Shown: positions 1,925 through 46,302 of the stretch, in pieces
Layout: each line of letters opens with the position of its first letter
Position numbering within the stretch: the first letter of the stretch is position 1
NCBI GenBank assembly: GCA_903813345.2
Contig: CAIIXF020000006.1
Location: 10,032,989-10,096,988 of the forward strand
From: Owenia fusiformis
Lineage: Eukaryota > Annelida > Polychaeta > Sabellida > Oweniidae
Direction: 5' to 3'
Length of the DNA stretch: 64,000 nt
Position numbers and translations under genes: made by a program
Notes under the pieces: model-generated
What the model was told of the DNA's origin: nothing
The model's database searches: none
The model's input: only the letters and a program-made list of their open reading frames with translations

Positions 1925-2115
1925 CTTCTTACCTACCTACTTACCTACTCGGCTACCTACTTAGCTACCTACTTCTCAGCTACTTACTCGGCTACCTACT
2001 CAGCTACTTACTCAGCTACCTACTCAGCTGCTTACTTAGCTACCTACTCAGCTACTTACTCAATTACTTAATCATCTACTCACTCAGCTTCCTACTCAGT
2101 TACTTACTCAGCTCT
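1925..2115. repeat. Second copy of the ctacttactcag minisatellite
   Basis: Same position within the ~1.75-kb unit as the block at 166-366, with a slightly different number and order of 'cagctac' variants. Confidence 0.85.
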
Positions 2116-5100: not shown

Positions 5101-6104
5101 GCCTTGGTCAAAATCTAGGTCAAATTCATAGTTTTTCCTTATTTTTGCGATTCTGACATTACACTTTAAGGATTTGCTTCAAAATGTTGTATACAGGTAG
5201 CAAAGAGTGTGCTAATATTGTTAGCCTTTTGCCGTCAGAAAGTATTTTGACCCACTTTTGAGATATAGTGTCCGAAAAGTAGGTCAACATGAAAGTTTCT
5301 CCAAATTTAACGTATGAGTTATGAATTAAGGGTAGAATTTTCTCAGGAATCCGAATCTGCAAATCAAATTTCAATCCGACACCTGGTTTGGAAGTAATGG
5401 CGTTTTGAAAAATTAAATTTAAATTTGATATCCCATGTTATGTCAATTATCTTTGTCACTATTCGTCGTTATTCCTTTATCTTTTTTTCAGCATGTAGCT
5501 TAAAGACAGTCCTTTCATTATTGTAACTGTCTTTTTTGATTACTCTTACCGATTTTGAGGAATGGCGTCCGGAAAGTAGGTCAACATAAAAAGTTCTCAA
5601 AATTTAATGTATGAGTTATGACACAAACGTAGAATTTTCTCAGAAATTCGAATCTGCAAACCAAATTTCGACCCAAATTCTGGTTAGATAGTTATAGCTG
5701 TTTGAAGTCTCGAAAAGTCGATATTATGATATCCCCATGTTAAGCCAATGTAGACGAAGATAAGCTACTTACGAGTTGTCTAAATGTCTGTATTCTAGAT
5801 GACTCAGCTTATTCTGAATGGCTCAGCTTACAGTATTTTGGATGACTCAGCTTAAAAAAAGTTTTAAATCTGGAGTCTTAAATTGAACTTGTTCAATTTA
5901 CATGTCTAGTTAACCTTATTATCATTTGGGTCTGTTACTGCAGGCGGGAAGTACCAGGGATCTGCAGCACCAGACCCAGCTGTTCTGAAAGGTTTCAGAA
6001 TCCATTTCAGTTCAACTGTGTTGCTAAATTACTTTGAGAAATTAATGGTTTGCTTTTCGCTCATGTGATCACAATGTTATTTTCCTTTTCAGATTAAATG
6101 CACG

Positions 6105-7379
6105 ATGGAGTCTAGTTGTACATCAAATCATTCACCATCAGTTCAGTCTCAAACAGATACAAAATGCATTCAATGTCAAAGTATCTTTGAAAAAGCAAAG
6201 CGTGGATATAAGAGATACTCGCTAAAATATTTGAGTGAGGGTTCGAAGTTCAAAGATATACCTGGATTAACAGAGTATTTATTACAGAGATGTGACAATC
6301 CTGAAAGCTCATTTGTCTGTGAGAAATGTGTCAAGAAATATCGGGAGAGTCGCCATCACCCATCCACGATGGAGTCTAGTTGTACATCAAATCATTCACC
6401 ATCAGTTCAGTCTCAAACAGATACAAAATGCATTCAATGTCAAAGTATCTTTAAAAAAGCAAAGCATGGATATCAGAGATACTCGCTAAAAAATTTGAGT
6501 AAGGCTTCGAAGTTCAAAGATATACCTGGATTAACAGAGTATTTATTACAGAGATGTGAAAATCCTGAAAGCTCATTTGTCTGTCATAAATGTGTCAAGA
6601 AATATCGGGAGAGTCACCCTCACCCATCCATGATGGGGTCTAGTTGTACATCAAATCATTCACCATCAGTTCAGTCTCAAACAGATACAAAATGCATTCA
6701 ATGTCAAAGTATCTTTGAAAAAGCAAAGCATGGATATCAGAGATACTCGCTAAAAAATTTGAGTAAGGCTTCGAAGTTCAAAGATATACCTGGATTAACA
6801 GAGTATTTATTACAGAGATGTGAAAATCCTGAAAGCTCATTTGTCTGTCATAAATGTGTCATGAAATATCGGGAGAGTCACCCTGACCCATCCACTGCTT
6901 CATTACCTCATCATCTCCTGTTTCATTCATATTCATCCAACTTGCCCCAAGAACCTCAAAAGCGAGTTCCAGTCAAGCGTGTATATAAGAAAGTACGGTT
7001 AGAAGCAATGAACGCACTAAAACAATGTAAATATAGACGTCTTATTAAACTTTTATTTGAAGGAAGCAAGAAATTCAAACATGAATTTCACAAATTTCTA
7101 AGTGAAAAGGTAAAAAGAGAGATAAAAACCTTCTCAAAACAAATTAAGCCTTACAAAAACTGGAGGGATTTAATGGACCAATCCAGCAGCAGTATGCCAA
7201 TATTAACAAGTACAATTGAATCAGCTGTGCCAAAACAAAAGAGCATGAACGAAGATGATCAAGCTGCACGAGTCGGGGTGGTGACATCTATACTGTGCTA
7301 TCGCAAAAGTCGACTATTGGGAAATCAGTTTCAAAAGATAACAAGCTATCAACTTTCAAAGCATGGGTGTGACAAGAAA
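6105..7379 (+). CDS. Gene A exon 1: three CxxC modules plus conserved helical region
   Basis: 425 codons, phase 0 at the donor gtaagt (7380). Three 264-bp units start at 6105, 6369 and 6633, each beginning M-(E/G)-S-S-C-T-S-N-H-S. In unit 1 the likely metal ligands are C21, C24, C72 and C75, with a further C63. Units 2 and 3 are almost identical, so the last duplication is recent. A short Pro/Ser linker (about 263-293) leads into a Lys/Arg-rich region with YRRLIKLLFEGSKKF and the motif AARVGVVTSILCY. ATG 6105 is preferred because the upstream ATG at 6098 meets a stop after five codons and because gene B starts at the matching ATG. A 65-codon frame at 6292-6489 is an out-of-frame shadow. Confidence 0.85.
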
Positions 7380-13300: not shown

Positions 13301-16300
13301 AAAGCTAGGGGAAGTAACAAATATGCAAATAAATTTACCCAATCGGCCATTTTGACTGGCACTTCCTATGTAAACAAATAATTATACAATCCCAAGTTTT
13401 AACATATGTATGTGGGCTATAGTCTGAATATTTGCATTCCAAATTTCAAAAAAAATCAAGACTAGAGGATATAGTCTATGAGAGACCGTAGGGTTGATAT
13501 ATTGTATTTACCTATAACACTACTAAGTATGGGATAATAACTTAAAAGAGTTCTAACATACATGTACATGAACACCGACATCATATTTGTTATATACTAG
13601 TGGGCCACTAGTAACTTATTATAATTTTCTTATAAACACATGTTATTGTTTCTCCAGATGATGCGTTATCTTAACTATCTGGGCATTGCTGTTGGCCTTC
13701 AAGCAAACCAGAGCATTGTTGAAAGAACAGACAAAGAAGAGCTTAAACAGGTGAGTATCAAATTAAAACATTTGTTGTCACAACAATAAGTGGTGACATA
13801 TTCTTATGGTCCTCAACATTTTTCTGGACTGTGTTCTGCAGTTGCCGTCTGGCATTCAGTGTATGTAACAAATAGTTGGTGATGTCATTTTGCATATTAA
13901 TCCCTTGTTTTTCATTTTCAAGGGCATTTGCATGTTACATGCAAAATTAAAAAAATTGTGTGAAAAAATGGGGCCAATTTCTTAAAAAAATAGTGCCCCA
14001 AATAAATATGTGTAACTTCACCAACACAATTGAAATCTCAAAACTGGATGCTCAGTAACTTTGAGTGACTATAATCCCTTGATTACCCAGATAAACAGCA
14101 ATTCACTTATCCAGAAATACCATTCAATGTCAAGACAAAGAAAGTATGCAATGTTTTGGAGGATATGTTTCAAACCTTTTGTATAAATAATTCATTTAAT
14201 ATTTGCCATTGATTTTTTTTCAATTCTGACAAAGTGATATGCACTGTCTTTGATGCCAATACTCTTCATTAATTATGATACAAATTGATATTTTTGTACT
14301 CTCAGAAGAAGGATAAGATATTGAAGTTTAATAATATGTGTGATTGAGTTAGTTTTTCAGACATTACAATTTTCAATATTTTCTAAGTCGATACCCAGAC
14401 TCATTCCCAGACTCATCCTTTTCCATTTTTCATTCTCCAGAAATGTGATATCCTGTTTCTTACTGAGGTCCTGAGTTTGGTTTTTCAAATACACAAGTTA
14501 TTGTGAATTTGTTCCATCTTAAAGACATATTATATATATATTATAAGCTTTTTTACGCTTTGATACAATTATGACACTTTAAATCAGGCTCTTGTACAAT
14601 TATCAAGCTCTGTTGTGCATTGTTACACTCTGTTAAGCTCTGTCGCACATTGGAAAATATCGAGATCGCCATTTCATTTCTGGCAATACATTTACATGTA
14701 TTCTAGCCCTACCCTAGCCCTACCAATACCCATGATGCCATCTATTTTTCCATTTATATGGAAAAATGTCAATTACTCATCTACTTACTCAACTTGAACT
14801 TGTTCTTCTTTTTCAGTGGGATGAATTCTATTCAACCAAGGGGATCAAAAGGCCACGTAGTCCAGCAGAAGAGGAAGAAGAAAACAATGCAAATAAACAA
14901 CAGAAGCTTGATCAAAGGTAATTTTTACAAACTTTTACATGTTTTTATACAATTGTTTTATGTTAAATATTTTTTATTAATAAACCACATACTTTTAAAT
15001 AATATTTGCAGCGAGAGAGAAGTTTATGTACCTAAACTGAGCACAGAAGTTTATGATCGCTTATATCAACCCCATGGCTATGTCAAATCAAGTATCAAAC
15101 CAAGTAGCGAAATAGTGTCAAGACGTAGTGCAAGAAAGTGTCAAAAGAAAATGTGAGTATAATATTATAACATTCCATGTTTACATGTACGGAGCCCTCA
15201 TTATCCGGTCAGCGCTAAATTAGCGTTGCGATTTGCGTTGCGCTTGCGAATCAACATTATTCGCAAGCGCAAATCATGGTTTGCGTCGTATTACGCGCTT
15301 CACGCAGACGCAACGCAGACGCAACAGTATGCTAATCGCAAATAAATTGGAAACGCGGGAAATTTAAACTTAGAGCTCAAAATAGATTTATCGATTTTTT
15401 AATGTCTATGTATGTTTACGCCAGTGCGGATGTGTCAATCCCATACTTGGACGTGTTATAGGTAAGCCTACATAAAGCTGGTTTGTAATTAGAGGTTATG
15501 TCACTATGACGTGAAATATGCCTGAGTTCTCCCAATATAGGCCGACCTTGGGAGGCTCTATATTTGGGCAAGAACGAAGGCATATTTCACGTCATAGTGA
15601 CATAACTGATGTATTACATGCCTTTGTTCCCATGGTTACGTTGTATCAATGACGTGACGTCATGATATTATCATGGTTATTAAAGAAATCTAATATCAAA
15701 ACGAGGTAAGCGGGCTATATCGGGGTAATCGGGCAATATCGGTGGATATAGCTCGCTAACTTTCCCATTGACTTCCATACAAATGCTTCGCTAGGTATGT
15801 AATACAAACTTTTATTCCATACTTAGTAGTGTTATAGGTATATAACATGCGGGAATATAACTGATATGTGACGTGAGCGGGAGACATATATATCTACTGA
15901 GCCAGGGGACTTTGCTATTATTCCTAACAATCTACTAAGTATAGAATAAATCAGTTATTAAATGCTCGATTTTTGATACAGGGTATATCCCTCGGTAAAT
16001 ACAATATATCAACCCTCGGTCCCTACGGTCCCTCGGGTTGATATATTGTATTTCCCTCAGATATACCCTGTATCAAAAACCTCCCATTAAATAACCTCTA
16101 TATATTTTCATCAGCGGTCAGATATAGCTATACGTCCCGCTCTGAGCGGGCAGATATAGTATATCTGCCCGCTGACGTCATAATCGCCGTTCGCATATTG
16201 GTTCATTTTTGTAACATGAGCATAATTACTGTAAACGATAATGGAGAAAAGGCAGACAATTGCGATCTGTTTGAAGGAAGGAAATGAGCGTATCCCTGTT

Positions 16301-19300: not shown

Positions 19301-22300
19301 GCTTAAATATGGTATGTATACTTGTGTTGATTGTTAAAATACAAAATAGGTAGGGTAAAGAATATGTCAAAGTCGTTTGATCTCGTCCGGGAAGCAATAT
19401 TTTGTCATTTATGACGCCAAGAGAACCTTTAACATTGATTTGTCAATCTGTCTCTCAGTCAGTCCTAAATAGTGGAAAGTTTTAAAACCTCTGTCTGTCA
19501 ACAATTGTCTATTTTTAAATCCTTTGTCAATAGGATTCCCATTTAAAAATATTTTTGGCCAACATCAATAAAGAAAGAAACCCTGTGACTCCTGCTTCAA
19601 AAGCTAGCCTATTTTCAAAATGGCCGCCATTTTTGTCTCACGAAATTCACTTTTGACCCATTTCCTAGCTTTGCAAATAACTTCAGGTGTCCTGCATTGT
19701 AAAAAGCCATGTCACTGTTAAGAGTAGTTGTATGAAATAATTTGCAACAAAAAATCTGCCAAAAATTATATCCGTTTTTTTTTATTTTCTGTCATTTTAG
19801 CCATCATCACTTTTAAGCAACACCATGTGAGCCCAGTACCCACGGTACTATTTTCGTTTTGATTGTTTACATGATTTCCTAAAACAGTAACGAAATCCAA
19901 ATTGAATTGAACAAAAATCTGACAGTTTGAAGATTTATCTTAAATTGTGATAAATATGTATATTAACACATTTTGCAGATTTCCAGTTTCATCAAAATAA
20001 AGTACAGCATATACCCAAAATAAAACCAAGATACATTTTGAAGAAATCTCAAACATGCAAATTCTCAATTCTACTTCTGTATCTGAGGTACCTAGATGAA
20101 TAAATATATGATTATTGAATTTAATAAAAATTTAGACACACATTTACATTTTCAAAAGCATAACCTTAATAGAATAGATAGAGTAGAATCTGGACATTAT
20201 TTTAATTTGCATAACTATTAGATACATAATGGTGATATGAACATTGAACCACTAAAACAGATGTAATTTGAGTTAAAGAGAACTTTTTATTACTATACCC
20301 GCCATACAATCTGACCTGAACAAGCCACCTGGTGGTGAAACTGGTAACGACCTACTCACATCTGAGTTATTTTAAAAGACTAAATCTCTTTCTGTTTACA
20401 TTAGTCTAGGTAAAGAATGGATGACTGGACACATATCTGATCGTAAACTGCTGCGTAACTCAGGAACCTCAGCAAAAAGGTAAATGAATGCGTTGGTCCA
20501 CGATCATTCAGAAATAAAAGAGGAATTAACCTGTAGGTTGGCAAATAGTAAAGATAGAGTTCAAATGATACTCATTTGTTTATCCTAAAGTTCATGCAAT
20601 GAAGACAAAATCATTTGCTTTTAACTCAAAAGTTGATGTCACCACTTCGAGTGTAACATACTGTTAACATCTCCAACTTATTTTTTCTTGATGGCAGTTT
20701 GCATTCAGTGTTTAGTGTTCAGTGGTTGGTGTTTGGCATCTGTAACAAATGGCATTTGGTGACATTTTGCATGTTCATGCCTTGTGTATCATTTACGTTA
20801 GGGATAAACTATAAGGGTTGGGTTTAAGGAGGAATGATAGCCGAGGCAGCAAAGCCACAAAATTGATTTCTTTTTTATTAACTATAGTAATAAAGAACCC
20901 AGAGACACATCTGCTCGACATATATCTGAAAAAAAAGAACCCAGAGACACATCTGTGCGACATATATCTGAAAATAAAGAACCCAGAGACACATCTGTGC
21001 GACATATATCTGAAAATAAAGAACCCAGAGACACATCTGCAAGACACATACTTTATAATAAAGAACCCAGAGACACATCTGCTCGACATATATCTGATAG
21101 TGAAGAACCCATAGACACATCTGTGCGACATATATCTGATAGTGAAGAACCCATAGACACATCTGCGCGACACATACCTTATAATAAAGAACCCAGAGAC
21201 ACATCTGTGGGACATATATCTGATAGTGAAGAACCCATACACACATCTGCTCGACATATATCTGATAATGAAGAACCCAGAGACACATCTGCAAGACACA
21301 TACTTTATAATAAAGAACCCAGAGACACATCTGTGCGACAAATATCTGATAGTGAAGAACCCAGAGACACATCTGCGCGACACATACCTTATAATAAAGA
21401 ACCCATAGACACATCTGCTCGACATATATCTAAAAATAAAGAACCCAGAGACACATCTGCAAGACACATACTTTATAATAAAGAACCCGGAGACACATCT
21501 GCAAGACACATACCTTATAATAAAAAACCCAGAGACACATCTGCTCGACATATATCTGATAGTGAAGAACCCAGAGACACATCTGCAAGACACATACCTT
21601 ATAATAAAGAACCCGGAGACACATCTGCAAGACACATACCTTATAATAAAAAACCCAGAGACACATCTGCTCGACATATATCTGATAGTGAAGAACCCAT
21701 AGACACATCTGCGCGACAAGTATCTGATAGGGAAAAACCAATAGACACATCTGCACAACAAATATCTGATAATGAAGAACCCATAGACACGTCTGCAGAG
21801 CAAATATCTGATATTGAAGAACCCATAGACACATCTGCAAAACAAATATCTGATAGTGAAGAACCCATTGACACATCTGCACGACAAATATCTGATAGTG
21901 AAGAACCCATAGACACATCTGCAGAGCAAATATCTGATATTGAAGAACCCATAAACACATCTGGACAATACATATGTGACAACGAAGAACCCAGAGACAC
22001 ATCTGCACAACTCATATCTGATAACGAAGGACCCACAGACACATCTGCACAAAGGTAAATGGTGATTAATGTTGGTTCAATCCAAAAATATTTTAAAATA
22101 AAAGAGGAATTATCATGAAAGCTGTTAGAAACAGTGAAACCTCTAAATGGTATACCTCTAGAAGTAGAATGCCTCTGTTAGTAACAGAGTTTTCAGAGCC
22201 CCAAGACCAACTGATTTAACGTTAAATGAACCTTTATGAGTGGCACAGCTCCTAATTGAAACAAATTTTAGAGATATCAAAGGTGTGCCACGTACTTAGA

Positions 22301-25300: not shown

Positions 25301-28300
25301 AAAAAAATTAAAAAGAACAAATACATCCAAATCTCATTAATACCGTCAGAGTTATGCTGAAAACATGTGTAAATATTCCCATGTCACTTTATTATACCAT
25401 TAAAAAGTTAAGAAAGAAATGGTACATTTTAGATTATCATACTCTGACGTCATTTTCAATAGCATTTACTCCTAGCGTTATTGGACTTCGAACAGAAGTG
25501 TAGGTTACTCACAAATAATATATATCCATTGCATGGAGTAAGTAATTTTCTTTGGTATAACGAAACATATGAGTTAAAAAATAAATTGTGAGTTAACTTA
25601 GTGTTTTTAAGAAAAATAGCATGTTCCGTAACAGCGGACAAATTTTTCGTATATACCCTTTACAATTTTATAATATATTGATATGTAATGTTATGACTTT
25701 TCTGTTGTAGGAACAATAATGTGAACAGCGATGTTTTGTATCCTGAGGAAGACTTTTTTCAGACTTTGGTTGAAAGTGATGATACTGACGCAGTGTACAG
25801 CGGTATTTACACTTTCTATATTTACTTTTTGAAGCATATTGGTGTACCTACTTGTGTGAAATAGAGGAAATGTCTTATTTCATAAAAAGGGCCTTTAGTA
25901 AAGAGAGGACTCAAGGAGGATTGGAAGCCGTTATTCAAACTCGATACTCCGTTGCCCGGCATGGACCAATTTAGTAACAATGTTACTCATATTTTAAAAG
26001 ACAGGAACTGCCAATGAAACTTGAATAATACAATTAATATTTGTAATATATGTATTTTAACAAAATACTTGGTTCTAAAGGAATTTTAAAGAAATATTTT
26101 TACTAAATTGTTCCACTCCGGGCAACAGAGTATCAAGTTTGAATAATGGCTGCCAATCCTCCTTGAGCAAGACTTGAAATGCCTTCATGGAAAATGCCTC
26201 CATGCATCCAGGCTTATTGAAACTACTGTACTCCCACTAATATTTGACGTTATAATATTTCGCGTTTTTGGCATTTTGAAATTTCGCGGCTATTATATTT
26301 CGCTAATTTTCAGTTTTTTGAAATTTCGCGGCTATTAATCTCCTCGGATTTGTCATACAGGATCACTCTTTTGACTTTGATATCAGTCATGGTTGTTCCT
26401 GCTACCAATGATTTTGGCTTCTTATTAAGCCTTTTCGTTAGAATGTTCGTTTTAATACAGTAATAATGATCTCTCTTCTAATTTCTCTTTTTCAAACTCA
26501 AAATGTCACGTTTTTACCTATTATCGCCCAGCACTGGATGAAAATATTGTCAACATTGAAATCCCCAGGAATTTCCTTGGAATTTCGCGACTATCCAATT
26601 TCGCGAATTAAAACTGGGGGAATTTCGCGGCTATTATATTTCGCGAATTTTCCAAAAGTTGTGAAAAGCACAAAATATAGTAGCAGGAGTACAGTATTTT
26701 AAATGAAACGATCCCCTTATATTAAGTATGCTGAACAAAAGTCCTTTGTAAATGCCCCCAAATGGACTTTGCTGCCTCTTTAGTACAAGTAGTCAGTCAA
26801 AATTTTCTGACCACGTACTTTTACTTTTCTTATAATCTCTAATAATTTGCAGAAGTGTTACGTATATAAACATTGTCTTTCAATTCAATATTACACAATG
26901 CACATTTGCTGAAAATTTAACCTAGTCACATGGTTGAGAAATTAGGAAATGGCAGAATTTATGATGTATGTTGACATGTTTTTTAGAATATTATAGAATT
27001 GAGATGAAAATGATAAGGTCAGAATTGTACTTGATGTAAAGTTCATTAATTCTGATATTTTCTTATGTTTTCAGGCGATGTAATTAAATTACTCTCAGAA
27101 ATTGATGAAACAGTCGCTGAATCTTACTATTACTGAAAGTGATGGTACTGTCATATTTTACAATGGTATGAGCACTTTTATATTTACATGTAGTTTTTGA
27201 AGCATAATGGACAATGGTGTTCATGTACCTACTTGCCTGACAAAGTCTTGGGACGGTCTTATTTCCTAAAAGGGCCTTTTACCTAATTAATTTTTTTAGG
27301 AAAAATATAGAAATGTCACCCACATAAAATTATGAATATTCAAAAGAGGACATTTTGATCTACAATTATACAAAAATATCAAAATGAACCATATTGAATT
27401 CTCTCCAATATGCTTTATTCCATTAAAATCGAGCCATTATTGACTGTGTTATGAATTTTTAAAGTTGTCAGGTTGTCACTAATCGCGTTCTCTTCACGAA
27501 TTTGAGAGAAAAACAGATTTTTTCAAAAACTACTCTATGAAATTTTTTTTGCATATTCCTAAATGTTTATGCACACAGTGGTATCAGAATTATGATGATA
27601 CTTTTAGATATAAAATTTTAGATATACATGTAAGTTTTCAATTTCACTATTTCAATGTTTGTGCCATTGCTTAGTGGTTGCTAGGCAACATCCAACAGTA
27701 CCAAGTTCTACATTCATACATCTGCATACTAAATTAATGATTGGCATTTGTTGTACATCTTGAAATATATATGCTAAAGACAAAAACAAGTTGAATTTGA
27801 AATTGCTGATGATTCAATTTCATTTTACATTGATTTCGATGGGATTTCGTGATACCTGCTGTATCTTTGAAAGTTTTCTAGAAAAGCTTTTACCATGATT
27901 TTAGTTTTATTTAAAAGATAATAGATAATTCTTTAAAGGCAGCGAAGCATTTTTTGGCACAAAAAATTTATTTTGAAAGAAAATTGACAATTTGTCACAA
28001 AATGTCAAAAAATTACACCCCCTAGGTTGTGTTGACCTGACCTATATTATTGACCTATTTTTCTAAGAATGAAGAAAATAAAACCTTTCCAAAGAAGTAA
28101 TTGAATAAGGTTTACAACAATACCAACAATAATGAAATCAGACAAGTAATAAAAAGTTGGAGAGGGGCGGGATTCCAAATGACCCCCTCCCTGTGACTTA
28201 GTGTTTTAAAAATGGTTGCAGACATTAGGATTAACTCTGATATTTTTATATTTTTCAGGAAAAGTACCTGGATTACTCTCAGACGCTAATGAAGCAGCCA

Positions 28301-28407
28301 TTGCATTCTACTCATTGATAGAAGATGGTCAGGAAAATGTTTTAGATTTAGAGGACGTTATCTCATCTTATTCAGCATGTTCAGGGACTTTCGATTTTGT
28401 GACATGA
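6105..28407 (+). CDS. Gene A: multi-exon CxxC-module protein with 14-residue repeat domain (1030 aa, inferred)
   Basis: Inferred coding exons: 6105-7379, 13658-13750, 14817-14917, 15012-15152, 20405-20479, 20888-22054, 25711-25802, 28259-28407. Every junction has AG before and GT after, phases agree across all joins, and the total of 3093 nt ends at TGA 28405-28407. Residues 1-262 are three copies of a CxxC/CxxC module. About 294-456 is a basic helical region shared with gene B, including AARVGVVTSILCY. About 457-537 is charged with KGIKRPRSP and SRRSARKCQKK stretches, suggesting a nuclear protein. About 562-951 is a 14-residue repeat domain, and the end is acidic. The upstream AG at 6091-6092 implies a 5' non-coding exon further left. 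I do not recognise a named family. The layout loosely recalls the N-terminal part of uncharacterised, possibly transposon-related invertebrate proteins, but no catalytic domain is seen. Gene B is its tandem paralogue. Confidence 0.75.
6369..6890 (+). repeat. In-frame 264-bp repeats (units 2 and 3) of the CxxC module
   Basis: Direct duplication of the 88-residue module inside exon 1. Gene B has one module only. The unit length is a multiple of three, so the frame is kept. Confidence 0.9.
8150..8284. repeat. Imperfect hairpin, ~135 bp
   Basis: 'ggatattgggattatccc' pairs with 'gggataatcccaatatcc' around a core rich in 'ataatatat'. Probably a small palindromic MITE or part of the neighbouring element. 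Confidence 0.6.
8285..10620. mobile_element. Inverted-repeat-bounded element, composite
   Basis: 'ataggttatttactgggagg...ttgaatatgggttttattcc' at about 8289-8330 is matched in reverse at about 10571-10615 ('ggaataaaacccatattcaa...aataacctattta'). A compact version of the same foldback lies at 16866-17040, which suggests that 8400-10540 is material gained inside the element. That interior holds a CT-rich minisatellite and unclassified sequence. Frames at 9392-9634 (minus) and 9639-9944 (plus) look like repeat shadows. Confidence 0.6.
8690..9200. repeat. CT-rich minisatellite (ctctgctctgc / ctgtctgct)
   Basis: Irregular short units built from 'ctgtctgctctgctctg', with a longer repeated block of about 121 bp (starts near 8821 and 8942). 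Two overlapping forward frames of 141-167 codons rich in Leu, Cys and Ser are low-complexity by-products. Confidence 0.8.
10690..10850. repeat. Short tandem repeat, ~50-60-bp unit with 'caatacgattttt'
   Basis: Three to four imperfect units alternate 'ccggggacaatacgat' with 'catgtaatacg'. Confidence 0.65.
10880..11455. mobile_element. Foldback element with internal hairpin
   Basis: Outer arms: 'ggttcaaattgttcagtcgt...gaatattcatgtcc' (about 10910-10960) pairs with 'ggacatgaatattctaaaat...gaacc' (about 11369-11415). Inside, 10970-11056 is a near-perfect hairpin around 'gtccaagtatgggataaata'. A related patchwork copy is nested in the Harbinger remnant (15425-16510), sharing 'gcagatatagtatatctgcc'. 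Confidence 0.6.
12383..12495. repeat. Palindromic MITE-like hairpin
   Basis: 'gaatacctgta...ctttcaca.gtgatattccac' folds onto 'gtggaatatcac.ttgtgaaag...tacaggtattc' with a small loop near 12435. Related sequence lies in both 3' flanks of genes A and B (about 28490-28600 and 46390-46480). Confidence 0.65.
13658..13750 (+). CDS. Gene A exon 2
   Basis: 31 codons, phase 0 at both ends, acceptor 'tctccag', donor 'gtgagt'. Begins MMRYLNYLGIAVGL and ends DKEELKQ. Same length and junctions as 39729-39821 in gene B, which is the best evidence that it is coding. Confidence 0.85.
13785..13925 (+). repeat. Short copy of the GTGACA element in intron 2
   Basis: Starts near 'aagtggtgacatattcttat' and ends near 'cattttgcatattaatccct'. 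Intron 2 of gene B has the matching 3' remnant (39865-39905), so this copy was probably present before the gene duplication. The remainder of this 1.07-kb intron shows nothing else I can name. Confidence 0.55.
14817..14917 (+). CDS. Gene A exon 3
   Basis: Acceptor 'ttttcag', donor 'gtaatt', phase 0 in and 2 out. Begins WDEFYSTKGIKRPRSP, continues with an acidic run, then NNANKQQKLDQ. The KRPR stretch is a plausible nuclear localisation signal. Pairs with 40196-40296. Confidence 0.85.
15012..15152 (+). CDS. Gene A exon 4
   Basis: 141 nt, phase 2 in and 2 out, acceptor 'tttgcag', donor 'gtgagt'. Encodes VYVPKLSTEVYDRL and the basic end SRRSARKCQKK. The gene B version is 27 nt shorter in the middle. 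Confidence 0.85.
15505..15615. repeat. Hairpin MITE nested in the Harbinger remnant
   Basis: 'gttatgtcactatgacgtga' pairs with 'tcacgtcatagtgacataac', and 'aatatgcct' with 'aggcatatt', around a core containing 'cctcccaaggtcggc'-like sequence. Confidence 0.75.
15970..16080. repeat. Near-perfect hairpin, ~110 bp
   Basis: 'tttttgatacagggtatatc' pairs with 'gatataccctgtatcaaaaa', followed by 'aatacaatatatcaaccc' with its complement, around a 'cggtccctacggtccc' loop. Nested in the Harbinger remnant. Confidence 0.8.
16866..17040. repeat. Compact foldback, relative of 8285-10620
   Basis: 'gggattaaatatgggtttat' pairs with 'ataaaacccatattgaatcc', and inner 'caatttgatattt' with 'aatatcatattg'. It abuts the 3' end of the transposase fragment. 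Confidence 0.7.
17135..17467 (-). pseudogene. Harbinger transposase fragment (HARBI1-like N-terminal part)
   Basis: 110 codons on the minus strand. It contains RLFRDRSQPLEMTDDEILNRY, PLILELINIL, LKVFISLRFYATG and GVSQPTVSNIV, which match in order the N-terminal region of PIF/Harbinger (DDE_Tnp_4) transposases, with the helix-turn-helix-like GVSQPTVS segment. Intact family members are several times longer and carry the DDE catalytic residues, which are missing because the frame stops where the nested foldback begins. I see no accompanying Myb/SANT-like gene. A frame at 17603-17827 on the other strand is not recognisable. Confidence 0.8.
18183..18225. repeat. Microsatellite (tctg)n
   Basis: 'tctgtctgtctgtctgtc' run, imperfect at its ends. 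It sits at the edge of a dispersed repeat that often carries 'tctgtc' tracts. Confidence 0.9.
18240..19810. repeat. Three copies of a 'cctctgt..aggattcc' dispersed repeat
   Basis: Copies near 18245-18545, 18585-18860 and 19480-19800 share 'aatttcaggtgtcctgcatt' and 'caaaatggccgccattttt'. A fourth copy is at 30415-30725. Unrelated AT-rich sequence with 'acttccggt' sits between the second and third copies. The minus-strand frames at 18280-18564 and 18581-18958 are read from this repeat and resemble each other; I do not treat them as genes. Confidence 0.75.
20405..20479 (+). CDS. Gene A exon 5
   Basis: 75 nt, phase 2 in and out, acceptor 'ttacattag', donor 'gtaaat'. Encodes LGKEWMTGHISDRKLLRNSG then TSAK. 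Strongly similar to 42052-42126 of gene B, and recognisably similar to exon 6 of gene B (L-KE--TGHI), so exons 5 and 6 look like duplicates. Confidence 0.85.
20630..20795. repeat. GTGACA element remnant in intron 5
   Basis: Contains 'gttgatgtcaccacttcgag' at the 5' side and 'gacattttgcatgttcatgc' at the 3' side. The matching remnant is in intron 5 of gene B (about 42300-42415), so it was shared before duplication. The first 150 bp of the two introns are nearly the same. Confidence 0.6.
20888..22054 (+). CDS. Gene A exon 6: 28 x 14-residue repeat domain
   Basis: 1167 nt, phase 2 in (AG|T) and 2 out, acceptor 'ttttttattaactatag', donor 'gtaaat'. The whole exon is a tandem array of 42-bp units with consensus S-D-(S/N)-(E/K)-E-P-(R/I)-D-T-S-A-R-H-I. 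I count 28 units including partial ones at both ends. Three sub-types alternate: SDSEEP, (L/P)YNKEP and SENKEP; the last third is more acidic with AEQI and AKQI variants. The composition is hydrophilic and charged, with no hydrophobic core, so it is probably extended or disordered and may act as a multivalent linker or binding array. The matching exon in gene B encodes only 26 residues. Overlapping long frames on both strands (up to 419 codons on the minus strand) arise because the unit is a multiple of three and free of stops. Confidence 0.8.
20888..22054. repeat. 42-bp tandem repeat array (28 units)
   Basis: Each unit contains 'acccagagacacatctg' or the 'acccatagacacatctg' variant. Units 15-17 (21471-21596) and 18-20 (21597-21722) form a nearly identical 126-bp pair, showing recent expansion by three-unit blocks. 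Confidence 0.95.
22303..24203 (+). mobile_element. TTATCCC...CTAGT repetitive element insertion
   Basis: The 5' end 'ttatcccatcgcacgaagtt' is repeated at about 22678. The 3' end is 'gggatttgctacgctttggc' followed by 'gttgtctagt'. The interior is a tandem array of about 135-bp units with 'agtggagcgattttgttcat' and 'catggcacactgtctaatga' (23050-24120). A relative occupies 62933-63930. No convincing coding frame. Confidence 0.75.
23030..24130. repeat. ~135-bp tandem repeat inside the element
   Basis: 'ttgttcatatttggt' recurs at roughly 135-bp spacing (near 23072, 23208, 23343 and 23478, then less regularly), each unit ending in 'cattttgaaaaatggccgcc'. Confidence 0.85.
24625..25660. mobile_element. 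~1-kb foldback element in gene A intron 6
   Basis: Both ends carry 'tttgtccgctgt.acgga'. The left arm 'cgattacctactccatgcaa' and 'gttattggacttc'-type sequence (about 24730-24840) is matched in reverse at 25450-25560. The inner motif 'tttgtccgctgtgactgagc' occurs twice on the left (near 25006 and 25083) and once in reverse at about 25255. The centre is near 25170. Absent from the gene B intron. Confidence 0.7.
25711..25802 (+). CDS. Gene A exon 7
   Basis: 92 nt, phase 2 in and 1 out, acceptor 'ctgttgtag', donor 'gtattt'. Encodes NNVNSDVLYPEEDFFQ and ESDDTDAVYS. Same length as 44292-44383 in gene B, with mostly conservative changes. Confidence 0.85.
26226..26694. mobile_element. MITE with CTGTACTCC ends and TA target duplication
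   Basis: Starts 'ctgtactcc', ends 'ggagtacag', flanked by TA at 26224-26225 and 26695-26696. The interior repeats 'aatttcgcggctatta' and 'atttcgcgaatt'. A second member is at 37185-37671. TA duplication fits the Tc1/mariner type, but there is no transposase. Confidence 0.8.
27075..27165 (+). pseudogene. Broken extra exon (exon 8/exon 7 hybrid)
   Basis: Preceded by 'tgttttcag' and followed by 'gtatga'. The first 60 bases resemble the start of exon 8 (gene A 28259, gene B 46163), with KLLSEIDE for LLSGTDEA. The last 30 resemble the end of exon 7 (ESDGT..). Read in the frame imposed by exon 7, TGA occurs at 27134-27136, and the 91-nt length is one base too long for the phase. If spliced in, it would end the protein early. 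Confidence 0.6.
28259..28407 (+). CDS. Gene A last coding exon
   Basis: Acceptor 'tttttcag', phase 1 in, ends TGA 28405-28407. Encodes KVPGLLSDANEAAIAFYSLI and an acidic end closing with FDFVT. The gene B version ends SDFVT at TGA, which confirms the shared C-terminus. Confidence 0.85.
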
Positions 28408-28817: not shown

Positions 28818-29416
28818 ACAAGGCACAGACGTGAACAATATCGTACCTAAAACACAGCAGTGTGACAGTGAAGAATTTAGGACGGAAAATCCAAAATGGC
28901 CACCTTAAAATTTACCCAGAATGCCCAAAAACTAATCAGTTCTTAACTTTGATACGTAGAAATATCCCTGAAAATTTCAGATGAATCCATCAAATGGTTT
29001 GGCTGGAAACCTGTAGACAAGTCTTGAAAGTGAAGATTTTAGGACGGAAAATCCAAAATGGCCACCTTAAAATTAACCCAGAATGCCCAAAAACTAATCA
29101 GTTGTTAACTTTGATATGTAGAAACATCCCTGTAAATTTCAAATGAATCCGTCAAATGGTTTGGCTGGAAACCTGTAGACAAGTCTTGAGAGTGAAGATT
29201 TTAGGACCTAAAATCCAAAATGGCCACCTTAAAATTTACCCAGAATGCCCAAAAACTAATCAGTTCTTAACTTTGATACGTAGAAACATTCCTGAAAATT
29301 TCAGATGAATCCGTCAAATGGTTTGGCTGGAAACCTGTAGACAAGTCTTGAAAGTAAAGATTTTAGGACGGAAAATCCAAAATGGCCACCTTAAAATTTA
29401 CCCAGAATGCCCTAGA
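28818..29416 (-). mobile_element. Element with 162-bp tandem repeats, reverse orientation
   Basis: On the minus strand it ends 'gtacgatattgttcacgtct' and carries about four units with 'ggtggccattttggattttc' and 'caggtttccagccaaaccat'. It is the reverse-oriented relative of 61433-62312. It lies about 400 bp 3' of gene A. Confidence 0.75.
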
Positions 29417-38311: not shown

Positions 38312-39193
38312 ATGGAGTCTGGTTGTACATCAAATCATTCACCATCAGTTCAGTCTCAAACAGACACAAAATGCATGGAGTGTGAAACTATCTTCGTTAA
38401 AAAGAAAAAAGGATTTAAGAGAAAATCACTAAAAAGTCTAAGAAGCTCCACTAAAACACAAGATTGGGCAGAGGACTTATTACAGAGAGGTGGAGATCCT
38501 CGCAAATCATTTGTATGTCAGGAATGTATTACTAAATATATTACCTATTACAATCAGGCGTATGGTATGACACTAAACTCTCCTTCATTACCTCCTCCTT
38601 CCCAATCAAATGAAGAATCTGTGGTACATTCATCACCTGTTCAAGTTCATGCTGAGCCACCCTCTCCTACCTCCCAGGCAACCCCATGTGCACCTAATGA
38701 ATCCCCAATACCTGAAATTCCCATTGAAATTTTTACACAAAAACTTGATCATTCATACAACTTGACCCCAAAACCTCCAAAGCCTGTAAGACATGGGAAT
38801 GCTATAATTAAAACAGCTATGGAAGCCGTAAGAAGAAGCAACTATAGACGTCTTATCAAATTGCTATTCCAACAAAGCAAGAAATTCAGACTAGAATTCC
38901 AAAGATTTGTAAGCAAAAAGGTAAAAATAGAGATAAAAGCGTTCACAAAAAAAATGAAGCCTTATAAAAACTGGAGCGATTTATTGGACGAATCCAGCAG
39001 CACAATGCCAATATTAGCAAGTACTATCAAATCAGCTGTGCCTAAACAAATGTACAACAGTAAGAACGAAGATGATCAAGCTGCTCGAGTTGGGGTGGTG
39101 ACATCTATTTTGTGCTACTGCAATAATCCTTTTTCAAATCAGTTTCAAAAGATGACAAGCTATCAACTATGGAAGCATGGCTGTGACAGGAAA
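38312..39193 (+). CDS. Gene B exon 1
   Basis: 294 codons, phase 0 at donor 'gtaagt'. An upstream AG at 38300-38301 after 'ttttttccttttc' marks the acceptor of the 5' intron, so the open frame extending back to 38246 is intronic. ATG 38309 directly precedes ATG 38312; the second matches gene A. Likely ligands are CMEC (residues 21-24) and VCQEC. The linker is rich in Pro and Ser, then YRRLIKLLFQQSKKF and AARVGVVTSILCY match gene A. Confidence 0.87.
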
Positions 39194-42100
39194 GTAAGTA
39201 CTATTTGTTCATAGACTATTGAATTGAAAGTTATAAATACAGTTAATTGACATGATTGAGTATATGAATGAAAATGCTCTAATTTTGTGTGGATAAGCTA
39301 CTGTACTATTGACAGATGATATACAACAGTATGATGATATGACAGTGATATACAGTAACATATATTGCAAGTGAAGCACATCATGTTTTATGATGATTTG
39401 TGATTGTCTGGTCAGATCATTAGAATATTTTAATGGACTGATAGTGATAGTGATAGCATTTATGTCTCATGATACGGTTGATTCTGTATATCCTGTTTAT
39501 ACTCAAGTGATTTTATGATATATTCGGGAGTGACCGAAGGATGATTATTGTGCATCTTTAAATGGTAGAATTCTAATACATCTCTTATGTTTACAATGTT
39601 TACGTTTCCGTTTTATATTTTTTGTTACAAATACAGATTCATATATGTTACTTGTTCTAACATATATCAGATAAAATATTTGTTATAATAATCATAATTT
39701 TCTTGTAAACATGTTGTTTTATCTCCAGATGATGCATTATTTAAATCAGTTGGGCCTTGCTCTTTGCCCTAAAGCAAATCTAAGCGTTGTGAAAAGAACA
39801 GACAAAGAACAGCTTGAACAGGTGAATGATAACCAAATTAAAATTTTTTTCTGTAACAAATTGCAGGTGGTGACATTTTGCATGTTAATGCCATGTTTTT
39901 TTTTTCCATGTTTTTCTTTATTTCAAGGGCCTTGCCTTGCCCATTAAAAAGGCAGTCATAGAAAAAATGAGGTGGGGGGGGGGGGCAAATATTTCCAAGG
40001 TTGTATGGAAACCAATTTTAGGCATAAGTTCTTAATGAATAGTGAAAGGCCCTTTTGTTATCTAAATTGCCCTGTTATGGGCCCCAAATATTTTTTGGGG
40101 TATCATGTCATTTAGATGCTCACTGGGGATTAATATGAGACAAATCTCGTTCTTACATATATTGTTCAATTGATATATAGTTTTTCCTTTTTCAGTGGGA
40201 TGAATTCTATTCAAGCAAGGGGATCAAAAGGCAACGTAGTCCAACAGAAGAGGGAGAAGAAAACAATGCAAATAAACAACAGAAGGTTGATCAAAGGTAA
40301 TTTTTACAAACTTTCATATGTACAACTGTATTTGATAATTTACTGATCTTACATATACTCATTTTATTTCAAATAATTTTTATTTTATTTTTTTATTTTT
40401 ATAGCAGCGAGACAGATGTTAATGTACCTAAACTGAGCACACAGATTGCTGGCTCATATAAACCAGGTACCAAACCAACTATGGCTTCAAGACGTAGTGC
40501 AAGAAAGAGTCGAAAGAAACTGTGAGTAGGCAACATAAAACTACATGTACATGTATATAATTCAATGTTTTAATACTATACAGTGATCTCAACAGAATCT
40601 TTTCTTCAGTGGGTGCAAAATTCTCATTTTCACAATTCAGACTGAAATTGGTCTAAATATGCCCATTTTACTTGCATGATTTCTCCTCATTTTCAAGTAG
40701 ATGCGAATGGATTTTCAGTTGGGTGCAAGCCTTTTTTCAAAATCTCAGGTGTGTCATATTTTGTCCTCCAAACCTTGAAATCGATGAGATTGAGTACATG
40801 TATTTTGTTATGTGGTTTTGTTTTGATTGTTTATATTATTTCCTAAAATTTCAGAGACAGAGTCAAACAGTATAGGAATTGAACAAATGTCTTCAATTGT
40901 CATACAATGTAAATGCAGATTTCCAATTTCACAAAAATAAGGCAGACAATAAAATTATATAATTATGCAATAGGGATGTTGAAGCTATTCGGAATCTGAA
41001 AGTGACATGTTATGGTCAAGAGCATCCAATATCCAATCAAGAGGTCTTTAGTTACTTTCCCACAGAGGTGGACTGACTTTTTCACATCTGCCAATAGCGT
41101 AGGATTTGATCCTATGTTTCAAAGAATGTTATGGTGCAGATGTTATTAAATTTTCACATAGCTAGGCAAGGTGTGTCCGATTCCAGTCAATCTGTACAGA
41201 GTATTCACATAATGAACAGTATGTTAAATAATCAATAACACACTCAAGGTCACTAGTTAAACAGTTGTCATGGTCATGAATTATTTTTCACATTGGATTT
41301 GATGACTCGCCAACTTGACCCTTGCAAAAAATTTCATTGAAAATGTGTTCTTTTAGTGATTTCGTTCCTTTTAGATGATTTTATAGAAAAAATTGCAATG
41401 TGTGAAAAGAATTTAAGCCAAAGACTGCATTGTAGCTTCTTCATCCACTCAGGCATTGTTTCTTATACTTTGCATTCCGCTGCGTGGTCATGGAAAGGTT
41501 TGGAAACAATACCTTCATGTATGATTCAGCAAACAATGCATCTTGGGCTTAAGGGGAGCCATCAAAAGTTCAATGTCGGATCGGAAACTAAATAAATCTA
41601 GTTTTGACTCTGACCCCCCCCCCCTCTCCCCCAAAACTAAATACCATGAAAGTTGATCGCTTACTCCCGGTTTGAGAATTTGAAAAATTATTGCTAAACA
41701 CGATCTAGTTTTTGTTAATTCCTATCGTAATTTGCGGCTTTTAACAACTATTGATAGAATAGAATCCATTGGAATGATCTTGACGAAGAAAGCAGCAGGT
41801 AAAATCTTTATTTTTATACCATTCCGAGGCATTCTGAGTCGAAATTGCCAAAAGTTTGAAATGTTTAAGTTTGTCGGATAGCAAACTGAAATGGGTTTGA
41901 ACCCCCTCCCCCCTAACTAGATTTATTTAGTTTTCTATCCGACATCGAACTTTTGATGCCTCCCCTAAATCCTTTACTAATGGATCCAATGAAAGTTAAA
42001 ACAGACATTTAATGAACATTTTTAAAAGCAAAACCTTTTTCTGTTTACAAGTCTTGGTAAAGAATGGATGACTGGACCCATGACTGATTGGGAACTGCTG

Positions 42101-45100
42101 TATAAACCAGGCACCTCAGCAAAAAGGTAAATGAATGCATTAGTCCACAATCATTCAGAAATAATAGAGGAATTAACCTGTAGGTTTGCAAATAGTAAAG
42201 ATAGAGCTCAAATGATACTCAGTTGTTTATCCTAAAGTTCATGCAATGAAGACAAAATCATTGGGTTATAACTCAAAAGTTGAAACATATTTTTATATAG
42301 TCTCCAACTTTTTTTCTGGATGACGGACGGCATTCAGCGGTTGGTGTTTAGTGGTTGGTGATTGTTGTCCATGGTCTGCAGATTAATTTGCATGTTAATG
42401 CCTAGTTTGATTTAATGATAATACCTAAGAAAGTGTTATAACATACAAATATCTAGGATGTGCACTTATTAAAAATAAGAAGTTCACCAAAATGTATGTT
42501 TGTTCAAAGTTAAACAGAACAATAGAAAATAAATGACATTTATATAGCGTCATTGCATCTTTTTGATTCCTTTAAATTCTATTTATATTCTAAAGTAAAC
42601 TTTTTTCTGTTTAATAGTCTACTGAGTAAAGAAGGTGTGACTGGGCACATAACTAAAAATATATGCATAGATAACACAGCTGCCTCTGTACAAAGGTAAA
42701 TAATAGTGATCTACATTGGTCCAAAATAATCACTAAGATTGCAAATAGTAAAGATGGCCCATAGTCAGATAGTAAAAGCACAATTAGAGAAACCTCCCTA
42801 ATATTTTGGCATAATAGATGTAAAACAAGTTTGTCTATTCCTTACAAAATGAGCCTGCCACTAACTTGTTAGAGTATCAACTTAATGATTACTCACAAAC
42901 AGTAATTTCTGAATGGCTAGAAGTATATGCAAAATGATATTGAAAAAATCCGCTTCAATTTTCTCCAATCTTATTGGCTGTCTGGATTTTTCAAGAGATT
43001 CGACAGCATTGCTTGTAATTCACAATTTTCAAATACTGTAAATTGCTTTAATTTGATGGCTGTTTTAATTTGGCGAATTTGGTGGATTTATGACAACCGC
43101 AAAATTAAGCCTCACTATTGAATTATTTTTTGAAGAGAATAAATTCTGAAAGCAAGTGAGATAAAATAGCACTCGGTGGGAAGCTCTAAGAGGTGAGGGG
43201 TACTAGTATTGAATGAAGTAGAGTATGGCAAACATGGTATGTAATGGTTATGGAGATCGTTTTTTTGAAAAAACTAGACGCACCAAATAAAAGCAACTTA
43301 CAGTAATCAATAATAGAAACACACTTTTTTGAATCGAATCTGAAAGCTGTAAATGCAGTGAAACCTGTAAAGTGGAACACCTCTTGAAATGGAACACCTC
43401 TTTTATTGGAACACTTTATCGAGTCCCAAGACCAACTGACTTGATTTCAAATGAACCTCTATAAGTGGAACACCTCCTAAGTGGAACACATTTTAGAGAT
43501 GTCAAAGGTGTTCCACTTAGACCAGGTTTTTCTGTAGTCAACACCAAAACTCATGAATGAATGTTTATTTCATCTTTTTGATACTTTATGATTTGCCAAA
43601 AGAATAAATGGTATGTCACTTAAAGTTGTTCCACTTCTAGAGATGTTCCACTGTATTAGAAAGAAAACATTTGTTTGTCACCCTTAGTTTAATATATTTT
43701 AGGTTTAATATGTATGCAATCTTGTAGTTTTATTCAAAACACTATAAATGTCTCATACAGCAAAGTTCATTCATCATTGATTCAAAAACTTGGGTTGAAA
43801 TTATATGCCAATTATACCTACCATGATGTTCTTACTCTTTTTTTGTTATTTGTTATGCTGTATTTTACAATGGACTTACGACTTAGTTGAATCCTGAATT
43901 CTGTAGTATTAAACTTTTGGATTGATATAAAATACTTTGCTCCTGGAAAACTGAATACAACAAATGATCGTGTAAATTTAGGTCCTTCAAATGCAGTTCT
44001 TAACCAAATTGAAATATGTTATCAAATAGCTGAAAATTTTAAATCTCCTAAATTCTCTTTAAAAACAAGACTTCATTCAGTGAGATCGCTATACATAGCA
44101 TAACCTCTTTTGACATAAAGTTGCACAATTTTATCATCCTACCCTGTACATTTTGATAGCGCAATATATATTTGCCCGAGAAGAGGGGGCTTTGGGTTCG
44201 AACCTCACAGGGGTGGTCTGACTTTTTTGCATCAAGCCTCAGAGCAGAATTTCATTCTGTGTTATCATTAATCATTACTTGTCTGTTATAGGAACAATAA
44301 TGTGAACAGCAATGATTTGTATCCTGGAGAAAACATTCCACAGACCTTGACGGAAAGTGGCGGTACTGACACAGTGTACAATGGTATGCAAACTTTTTGT
44401 TGTATTTACTTTTCCAAGCCTTGGTGGACTAGGTTTGTCAACAACACATATGCATCCAAGCTAATAGAAATTATTATAAATGAAATTATCAATCTAACAC
44501 TGAAGAAAAATGACCCCAAATGGATTTTGCTGCCTCCAGTACAAGTTGTTTGAAACAACCATGTAAACATGTTTCAGAAAGAAATTGTCCATTTTAGAGT
44601 ACCTACGAATGTGTTCCTGTGACATTTTGGCATCAGAGAATGACAATGTCTACCCAAAGTTTACATGCTATACATATTAACATAACTGAAATCTTGATGA
44701 CAAAATTTGAGATACAAAAACAAAATTGCTTGTGAAAACCATTTACAAAAGTGTCATACGTCAGTGCTTTATGTGGGGATCTGATCAGATGTTCTTTACT
44801 TGAATACATGAATAGATTTCCTCTGAGTTTGTATTGTCAAAATTTGCCGACCCACAGACCACTTTTACTATCAAATAATCGAAGAAACATTGTCTTTCGT
44901 TTCAATATAACCAGACTTGCCAACCTCCCGTTTTTTTACGGGAATCTCCCGTAAATTTTTTGTTTTTCCGTAAAAAATACCAAACTCCCGTACCGTTTTC
45001 TCCCGTAAAAACTCCCGTAAACTCCCGTACCGTATTTCTACTAAAATCTCCTGTAATTTTAAAAAAATATGGCCGTAAAATCTCCCGTATTTTTGCTGAA

Positions 45101-46302
45101 ATCTCCCGTAAAATCTCCCGTATTCTGGTATAACTCCCGTAAAAAAAAAAAAAAACTCACGTTTTTTTCAAAATCTACCGTAAAAACACCAGTTTTTTCA
45201 GAAACCTACCTTAAGAACTCCTGTTTTTTCTGAAATCTACCGTAAAAACTCCCGTTCTTTCAAAATCTACCATAAAAACTCCCGTTTTTTCAAAATCTAC
45301 CAAAAAACTCCAGTTTTTCCGAAATCTACCGTAAAAACTCCCGTTTTTTCAGAAATCTACCGTAAAAACTCCCGTTCTTTCAAAATCTAAGTAAAAACTC
45401 CCGTTTTCAGAAATCTACCGTAAAAACTCCTGTTTTTTCAAAATCTACCAAAAAACTCCAGTTTTTCCGAAATCTACCGTAAAAACTCCCGTTTTTTCAG
45501 AAATCTACCGTAAAAACTCCCGTTTTTTTCAGAAATCCACCGTAAAAACTCCTGTTTTTTTTAAAAATCTACCGCAAAAAACTCCCATTTTTTCAAAACC
45601 TACCGTAAAAACTCCCGTTTTTTCAGAACCTACCGCAAAAACTCACGTTTTTCTGAAATCTTCTGTAAAAAAAGTCACGTTTTTTAAAATTTACCGCGAA
45701 AAATACCTTTTTTAAAAAATCTCCCGTAAAAACTCCCGTTTTTTCAAAATCTCCCGCAACAACTCCCGTTTTTTTTTCAAAATTTACCGCGAAAATTTTT
45801 AAATCTCCCGTAAAAACTGCCATTTTTTTCAAAAATCTCCCGTAAAAACTCCCACTTTTTTTTCAAAAAACTCCTGCAAAAACTACCGGATTTTGAAAAA
45901 AACTCCCGTAAAAGTACCACAATTTTTTTTAAATCTCCCGAAAATTTTTCATTTTAGGTTGGCAAGTCTGATAACACAATCGACATTAGCTGAAAACTTC
46001 AACTAAAATTGTTTGAGAAATGTTGAAATGGCAGACTGATTCCCAGAACTTATTGACCAACCTGTATACACATGTTTTGCAGATTATAGATTTTTAAAGA
46101 AATCAACAAAATGTAAATTGTACTTTTACATTGACTCAGATATTTTTATATTTTTTTTTCAGGCAAAGTACCTAGATTACTCTCAGGAACTGATGAAGCA
46201 ACCATTACATCTTACTCATTGATAGAGGATGATCAGGAAAATGTCTCAGATTCAGAGGACGTTATCTCATCTTTTTTAGGGACTTCAGATTTTGTGACAT
46301 GA
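38312..46302 (+). CDS. Gene B: multi-exon CxxC-module protein (524 aa, inferred)
   Basis: Inferred coding exons: 38312-39193, 39729-39821, 40196-40296, 40408-40521, 42052-42126, 42618-42695, 44292-44383, 46163-46302. The total of 1575 nt stays in frame to TGA 46300-46302. It is the tandem paralogue of gene A, with the same eight exons and phases and similar intron sequence next to most exons. It has one CxxC module, a longer Pro/Ser-rich linker, the conserved helical region with AARVGVVTSILCY, and only a single degenerate unit where gene A has 28 repeats. I infer it is closer to the ancestral form. Function is not recognised. The basic SRRSARKSRKK and KGIKRQRSP stretches suggest nuclear location. 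Confidence 0.78.
39729..39821 (+). CDS. Gene B exon 2
   Basis: 31 codons from 'atctccag' to donor 'gtgaat'. Begins MMHYLNQLGLAL and ends DKEQLEQ. Confidence 0.85.
39865..39905 (+). repeat. 3' remnant of the GTGACA element in intron 2
   Basis: 'ggtggtgacattttgcatgt' followed by 'taatgccatg', matching the ends at 50962, 59900 and 62627. A run of G (about 39975-39985) follows it. Confidence 0.65.
40196..40296 (+). CDS. Gene B exon 3
   Basis: 101 nt, acceptor 'tttttcag', donor 'gtaatt'. Encodes WDEFYSSKGIKRQRSP, an acidic run and NNANKQQKVDQ. Nearly the same as gene A exon 3. Confidence 0.87.
40408..40521 (+). CDS. Gene B exon 4
   Basis: Acceptor is a NAGNAG pair (AG at 40403-40404 or 40406-40407), so one extra Ser could be included. 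Donor 'gtgagt'. Encodes VNVPKLSTQIAGSYK and the basic end ASRRSARKSRKK. Confidence 0.83.
40522..42051 (+). other. Gene B intron 4
   Basis: 1.5 kb against 5.25 kb in gene A. It has no Harbinger remnant but holds its own MITE (41550-41967). The remainder shows nothing recognisable; the frames at 40672-40875 and 41356-41595 have no family features. Confidence 0.6.
41550..41967. mobile_element. MITE in gene B intron 4
   Basis: The ends 'aaggggagccatcaaaagtt' and 'aacttttgatgcctcccct' are inverted, with pairing continuing through 'atgtcggat' and 'aaataaatctagtt'. A C run at about 41615-41625 lies just inside the left arm. Confidence 0.8.
42052..42126 (+). CDS. Gene B exon 5
   Basis: 75 nt, acceptor 'ctgtttacaag', donor 'gtaaat'. 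Encodes LGKEWMTGPMTDWELLYKPG then TSAK. Same length as gene A exon 5. Confidence 0.85.
42618..42695 (+). CDS. Gene B exon 6 (single-unit counterpart of the gene A repeat exon)
   Basis: 78 nt, acceptor 'ctgtttaatag', donor 'gtaaat', phase 2 in and out. Encodes LLSKEGVTGHITKNICIDNT then AASVQ. The end (HITKN..D-T-A-S-V-Q-R) aligns with the last gene A repeat unit (ISDNEGPTDTSAQR), so both exons share one origin and only gene A expanded. Confidence 0.82.
43355..43675. repeat. 'ggaacacctc' element in gene B intron 6
   Basis: Repeated 'gtggaacacctc' and 'ggtgttccactta' with weak inverted symmetry. It is the intact counterpart of 22125-24350 in gene A, so its insertion predates the gene duplication. 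Confidence 0.75.
44292..44383 (+). CDS. Gene B exon 7
   Basis: 92 nt, acceptor 'ctgttatag', donor 'gtatgc', phase 2 in and 1 out. Encodes NNVNSNDLYPGENIPQTL and TESGGTDTVYN. An open frame running on to 44553 is read-through into the intron. Confidence 0.87.
44912..45970. mobile_element. Element with CAGACTTGCCAACCT ends and ATAAC duplication
   Basis: Perfect 15-bp inverted ends at 44912-44926 and 45956-45970, flanked by ATAAC at 44907-44911 and 45971-45975. The interior is a degenerate tandem array of 'taccgtaaaaactcccgttt' units of about 33-37 bp. It lies in intron 7 of gene B and is absent from gene A. A 69-codon minus-strand frame is a repeat shadow. Confidence 0.88.
46163..46302 (+). CDS. 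Gene B last coding exon
   Basis: 140 nt after 'tttttttttcag'. Encodes KVPRLLSGTDEATITSYSLI, an acidic run and SDFVT before TGA 46300-46302. A possible AATAAA at 46457-46462 lies in a repeat-like 3' flank and could be a polyadenylation signal. Confidence 0.87.

Follow-up and report, generated by a model that had tools for sequence, protein, structure and literature searches.

In MUC1, involucrin, and the zinc fingers of PRDM9, much of the protein consists of an in-frame minisatellite, and recent block duplications have occurred. In recently duplicated human paralogues residing in segmental duplications, internal tandem repeats vary in number (De Grassi & Ciccarelli 2009, PMC2812944). In these human cases, copy-number changes of coding minisatellites are described as mostly in frame and mostly expansions. 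Low-complexity segments between domains were lengthened, and the units averaged 30 bp in four copies (PMC2812944).

The gene cluster analyzed here, from the annelid Owenia fusiformis, resembles those human paralogues as described there (PMC2812944) in that related copies differ, in frame, in the number of coding minisatellite units. It is unlike them in that 42-bp units are repeated 27.7 times and fill an entire exon, and in that the genes are far more diverged. From MUC1, involucrin, and PRDM9 it differs in that the array sequence of the expanded gene (gene A) is unrelated to theirs, and in that both the array and its length are known from one assembly.

The reading that we regard as likely is that exon 6 of gene A is a coding minisatellite within a frame-neutral (phase 2-2) exon, in a fast-evolving tandem gene cluster. 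Three stages are found side by side: a one-unit mini-exon (gene B), a short array with its original head (gene C), and a long headless array (gene A). The series allows asking how an exon enlarges fifteen-fold without breaking its gene. It reveals no new mechanism; the kind of change is known and the example is new, a fairly ordinary repeat lengthening of a predicted protein.

The gene cluster and its repeat array

The window is the whole analyzed stretch of 64,000 nucleotides (C6:10032989-10096988). For the analysis, 10 kb of upstream and 30 kb of downstream sequence were added, and coordinates above 64000 continue the window numbering. The genome searched comprises 498 Mb in 12 chromosome-scale contigs. 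Comparison of the two window halves uncovered a tandem duplication. Gene A is predicted to have 8 exons (6105-28407, 1030 aa), as is gene B (38312-46302, 524 aa); both are sequence-based models spliced by script. Their exon phases match, the splice sites are AG/GT, each has a single open reading frame, and the stop codons are homologous. The ATG is preceded at a short distance by a shared acceptor, and because the stretch between the two differs by only 2 nt in A and B, the start codon was placed there. The features are listed in Table 1.

Table 1. Predicted exons, modules, and array parts of genes A and B (window coordinates).
Feature	Position	Strand	Remarks
Gene A exon 1, coding part	6105..7379	+	425 codons; CxxC...CxxC module and conserved part downstream
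Tandem CxxC module in gene A exon 1	6105..6896	+	three in-frame copies, 264 bp (88 residues) each
Gene A exon 2	13658..13750	+	
Gene A exon 3	14817..14917	+	
Gene A exon 4	15012..15152	+	
Gene A exon 5	20405..20479	+	75-nt mini-exon, related to the expanded exon
Gene A exon 6, array exon	20888..22054	+	1167 nt, phase 2-2, 27 full and 1 partial 42-bp units
Array 5' part, units 1-19	20889..21686	+	net charge sum -3 (K, R, D, E only)
Array 3' part, units 20-27 and partial unit	21687..22052	+	acidic; charge sum of units 20-27 -26 (K, R, D, E)
Gene A exon 7	25711..25802	+	
Gene A exon 8	28259..28407	+	terminal, stop codon
Gene B exon 1, coding part	38312..39193	+	start possibly one codon earlier
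Gene B exon 2	39729..39821	+	
Gene B exon 3	40196..40296	+	
Gene B exon 4	40408..40521	+	
Gene B exon 5	42052..42126	+	75-nt mini-exon
Gene B exon 6	42618..42695	+	78 nt; corresponds in position to the array exon of A
Gene B exon 7	44292..44383	+	
Gene B exon 8	46163..46302	+	terminal, stop codon

In gene A, Tandem Repeats Finder (TRF) placed the array at 20888-22050, with a period of 42 bp, 27.7 copies, a score of 1391, 85% matches between units, and 0% indels. The frame starting at 20889 contains 27 full 14-residue units and a partial unit of 10 codons, with zero stops, which bears out the 28 in-frame repeats described in an earlier note on this DNA. The unit consensus is NEEPRDTSARHISD. The exon is immediately preceded by AG and immediately followed by GTAAAT. 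With tandem units that fall within the 10-100 bp range, a unit length divisible by 3, and no in-frame stop, the array is a minisatellite in frame. The earlier note had also pointed to a counterpart of about 78 nt in gene B, and that exon measures exactly 78 nt.

A genome search with 161 residues encoded by exon 1 of gene A gave four matches (7 candidates, all scored), namely A, B, and two further paralogues, C and D. Gene C is a third tandem copy which begins about 2 kb beyond the window end, with exon 1 at 66013-66810. Exons 1, 2, 6, 7, and 8 could be assigned to it; exons 3-5 were not found in the extended window and may fall within a stretch of N that separates exons 2 and 6. Its exon 6, about 18.8 kb beyond the window end, is 279 nt long and consists of a one-unit head like the exon of B, followed by five units (four full and one partial in the register of the A array). 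The head reads (S)IGEKRMSEHKSSNNEQTGTSVQ, where the first residue rests on an assumed ending of the missing exon 5. Related genes thus differ in copy number (27.7 units in A, a head and five units in C, one in B), and, contrary to what had been supposed, more than one paralogue has expanded. Paralogue D, at C6:21.09 Mb (C6:21084837-21104836), is diverged and possibly a pseudogene: exon 1 pieces with a single CxxC module and exon 2 are recognizable, the frame is interrupted, and two stops lie within the matched stretch. As an outgroup for exon 6 it yielded nothing, since what could be recognized was limited to those two exons.

Genome searches with protein and DNA revealed no second copy of the gene A array among the matches listed. 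DNA from the 3' third of the array matched only A (five times) and C (once; 2 candidates, both scored), and the idea of a dispersed satellite was dropped. Among 32 protein matches to the whole array, the 30 falling outside A and C were taken as low-complexity noise (12-36% identity); five of them have internal stops, and the best, on C7, reached 58 bits.

Proline occupies unit position 4 in all 27 full units of A and all four of C, and most residues of the units are charged or polar. From this composition, the segment encoded by gene A exon 6 is probably disordered, proline-punctuated, and charged. The 5' and 3' parts of the array differ. The identical pairs of units (4=14, 15=18, 16=19) are all found within the 5' part, which points to recent block copying there. 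Variants ending in ..HILY and ..HIPY occur in the 5' part and are absent from gene C units. Units 20-27 are somewhat more diverged (a mean of 6.3 vs 5.8 differences per unit pair) and closer to gene C units, with a mean distance of 6.1 vs 6.9 for the whole A array. The exception is the first unit of C, to which unit 5 is the closest of all A units.

Proposed origin and growth of exon 6

Exons 5 and 6 are related mini-exons: the exon 5 region of A and the exon 6 region of B share 71% identity in a 109-nt alignment (E 2e-6). We propose that an ancestral phase 2-2 mini-exon of about 25 codons was duplicated, giving rise to both. In exon 6, a 42-bp segment over the 3' end of the mini-exon would have been amplified in whole units through slippage or unequal crossover. 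This would have resulted in five units in C and 27.7 in A, with B having kept, or gone back to, one. Later amplification in A would have proceeded by the copying of unit blocks, chiefly within the 5' part.

In-frame growth by 42-bp units within a frame-neutral exon is well supported for these predicted genes, with qualifications to how it was first described. The 1089 nt separating 78 from 1167 nt are 25.93 units and not a whole number of them, which implies that one codon or more, or else the ancestral head of the exon, would have been lost or changed too. The exon of B, once described as one repeat unit, is related to the array via C and the mini-exon family but does not reproduce the repeat consensus. 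Near their ends, exon 6 of B and the exon head of C have nine bases, TCTGTACAA, in common.

The flanks of exon 6 give a mixed picture. In the 100 nt upstream, the B-C score of 54 was reached by 0 of 300 shuffles, the A-B score by 77, and the A-C score by 30. As the upstream flank of A is unlike those of B and C, which resemble each other, A may have lost or replaced its acceptor side; the predicted acceptor of gene A exon 6, non-homologous to that of B or C, could also be wrong. Downstream, the A-C score of 74 was reached by 0/300 shuffles and the A-B score by 185/300, and B-C similarity was weak (score 26, 3/300). The downstream flanks of A and C exon 6 also resemble those of exon 5 (0/300 shuffles). 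The statement that splice sites, phase, and frame had stayed intact therefore holds for the phase and for the donor side, clearly homologous in A and C, and fails for the acceptor side of A.

In a tree of units, those of A and C are intermingled, and the linked unit types NKEPR and SEEPI are found in both genes. At least two unit types would therefore have existed before the two arrays separated, or have been exchanged. Taken together with the DNA matches to A and C only, this suggests that the array either predates the A/C split or passed between the two genes.

Passage between the genes, by gene conversion or unequal exchange after their divergence, is a possibility to be taken seriously, although we would not call it probable; it concerns the origin of the array and not its coding use. 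Between A and C, dS is low in the array (0.17-0.23) and in exon 8 (0.20) compared with 0.65 in exon 1, and the 3' flank of exon 6 is alike in this pair, not in A-B, and only weakly in B-C. The low value in exon 8 does not single out A-C, however, since it is found in all three pairs (0.14, 0.20, and 0.19), and dS obtained from short homogenizing units is unreliable.

Rather unlikely, in our judgment, is an ancestral multi-unit form from which gene B contracted to one unit. The linked unit types common to A and C would agree with it, and so would the best branching (A with B, AU p 0.68), which puts the array before the split. This branching, rooted with D, is unsupported, as is every other grouping of A, B, and C (AU p 0.35 and 0.37). 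On the other hand, the exon of B is without the EEP.DTSA core of the unit and its end resembles the head of C, and the A-C unit dS (0.17-0.23) is below the 0.55 of their other shared exons together, which also fits a later A-C exchange. Growth from a one-unit exon is favored over contraction in B: of the five mini-exons seen in the three genes, three (A exon 5, B exon 5, and B exon 6) hold at most one unit, and the expanded exon of C retains its one-unit head.

Probable coding use of the array

In the preferred reading, a coding minisatellite, the array exon would be included in the mRNA. The CxxC part at the N terminus of the product and its acidic C-terminal tail would be separated by a charged and disordered segment. 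That the array acts as a spacer or a multivalent segment is a guess which we put forward tentatively.

dN/dS was calculated by the Nei-Gojobori method, with gene A exon 1 taken from the third module copy onward. Over shared exons without exon 6, it was 0.58 for A-B (440 codons, 7 exons), 0.57 for A-C (341 codons, 4 exons), and 0.45 for B-C (366 codons, 4 exons). The exon-by-exon A-B values suggest that constraint lies mainly in exons 1, 2, and 7 (0.44, 0.52, and 0.48); on few sites, exons 4, 5, and 8 gave 1.36, 1.20, and 1.06, and exon 3 has five replacement changes and no silent ones. Within the A array dN/dS was 0.87 overall, 0.74 for units 1-19, and 0.55 for units 20-27. The units of A against those of C gave 0.75, and the four units of C among themselves 2.8, on few sites. 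Heterozygosity in the A array at codon positions 1, 2, and 3 was 0.180, 0.147, and 0.154, with no third-position excess. These values suggest little residue-level constraint in the array.

The absence of stops lends weak support to coding use of the array. About 60 parsimony changes were counted over 31 units (27 of A and 4 of C), each with a stop chance of 0.038. The chance of zero stops is then about 0.10, or 0.17 when transitions are favored 2:1. In addition, the minus strand too has an open frame across the array, of 427 codons, so an open frame is in itself little proof. Intron indels were considered as a neutral control and dropped because coding exon 1 had equal gap noise: in its A-B alignment, 12 of 13 gaps are not a multiple of 3.

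The array could instead be an intronic minisatellite, with exon 5 joined to exon 7, the repeats never or rarely present in the mRNA, and the open frame incidental. The phase 2-2 borders of exon 6 would let the frame survive skipping, the acceptor region of A has no recognizable counterpart in B or C, and constraint within the array is weak, as its overall dN/dS indicates. We nevertheless consider this improbable. Over its 27.7 units the A array has 0% indels. The window contains five further arrays with at least 5 copies and a period of at least 12 bp (eight TRF rows), and among these the indel rate is 2-18% in four and 0% in one. Furthermore, gene C possesses an expanded exon of the same phase, the acceptor side of which is homologous to that of B.

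The CxxC module and neighboring sequences

The N-terminal module carries two CxxC pairs, from which we infer that it binds zinc. It is single in genes B and C. The three copies in gene A each start with ATG, and pairwise they are identical at 252, 250, and 258 of 264 bases (95-98%). We hold it to be very unlikely that the gene A protein is being remodeled simultaneously by two independent amplifications in frame (the tripled CxxC module and the exon-6 array), is conflict-driven and rapidly diversifying, and has its charge shifted from strongly acidic toward near neutral by the 5' units of the growing array; if true, the protein might bind nucleic acid or a parasite factor, with its affinity tuned by module and repeat number.

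Pfam scans covered exon 1 of A and B and exon 6 of A. Exon 1 of A exceeded the cut-off for CEP104_ZnF (32.4 vs 27.4 bits), with the top-scoring stretch extending over module copies 1 and 2, and exon 1 of B matched no zinc-finger family in Pfam at E<=1. A named CxxC zinc finger was thus found above the cut-off in exon 1 of A only and is not consistent across the two paralogues scanned. The repeat exon of A gave six matches, all under the curated cut-offs, which were taken as compositional noise. Some animal DUF6589 proteins start with a similar CxxC and helical region, which is a lead only. DUF6589 (PF20231) was not among the Pfam matches of A or B exon 1 at E<=1, its 8 matches in the genome are all located on chromosomes other than that of the cluster, and a literature search on the family found no paper. 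A PDB sequence search with exon 1 of B gave eight matches at E<=10. The best were SMARCA2/SNF2L2 constructs (residues 150-223 of the exon, E 0.11), probably by chance.

Several other repeats are found around the cluster. Window positions 1-5400, which border gene A on its upstream side, and at least 4 kb further upstream are taken up by a tandem repeat of roughly 1.75 kb; its pieces longer than 1 kb are 84-91% identical, and it has internal repeats of about 600 bp. Two arrays of 162-bp units, at 28863-29412 (downstream of A) and 61489-62173 (between B and C), lie in opposite orientation and are about 92-94% identical over the longer matches. In a gene A intron, an open frame on the minus strand of 17138-17494 weakly matches HTH_Tnp_4 (E 0.02, below the cut-off) and is presumably a piece of a PIF/Harbinger-type transposase. 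Between gene A exons 7 and 8, a hybrid of an exon 8 start and an exon 7 end is found at 27075-27165. It hits a stop in the phase left by exon 7 and resembles a partial duplication that has degenerated. An interspersed repeat at 20701-20813, shortly before the array exon, occurs in at least 40 other places (the best 40 of 1549 candidates).
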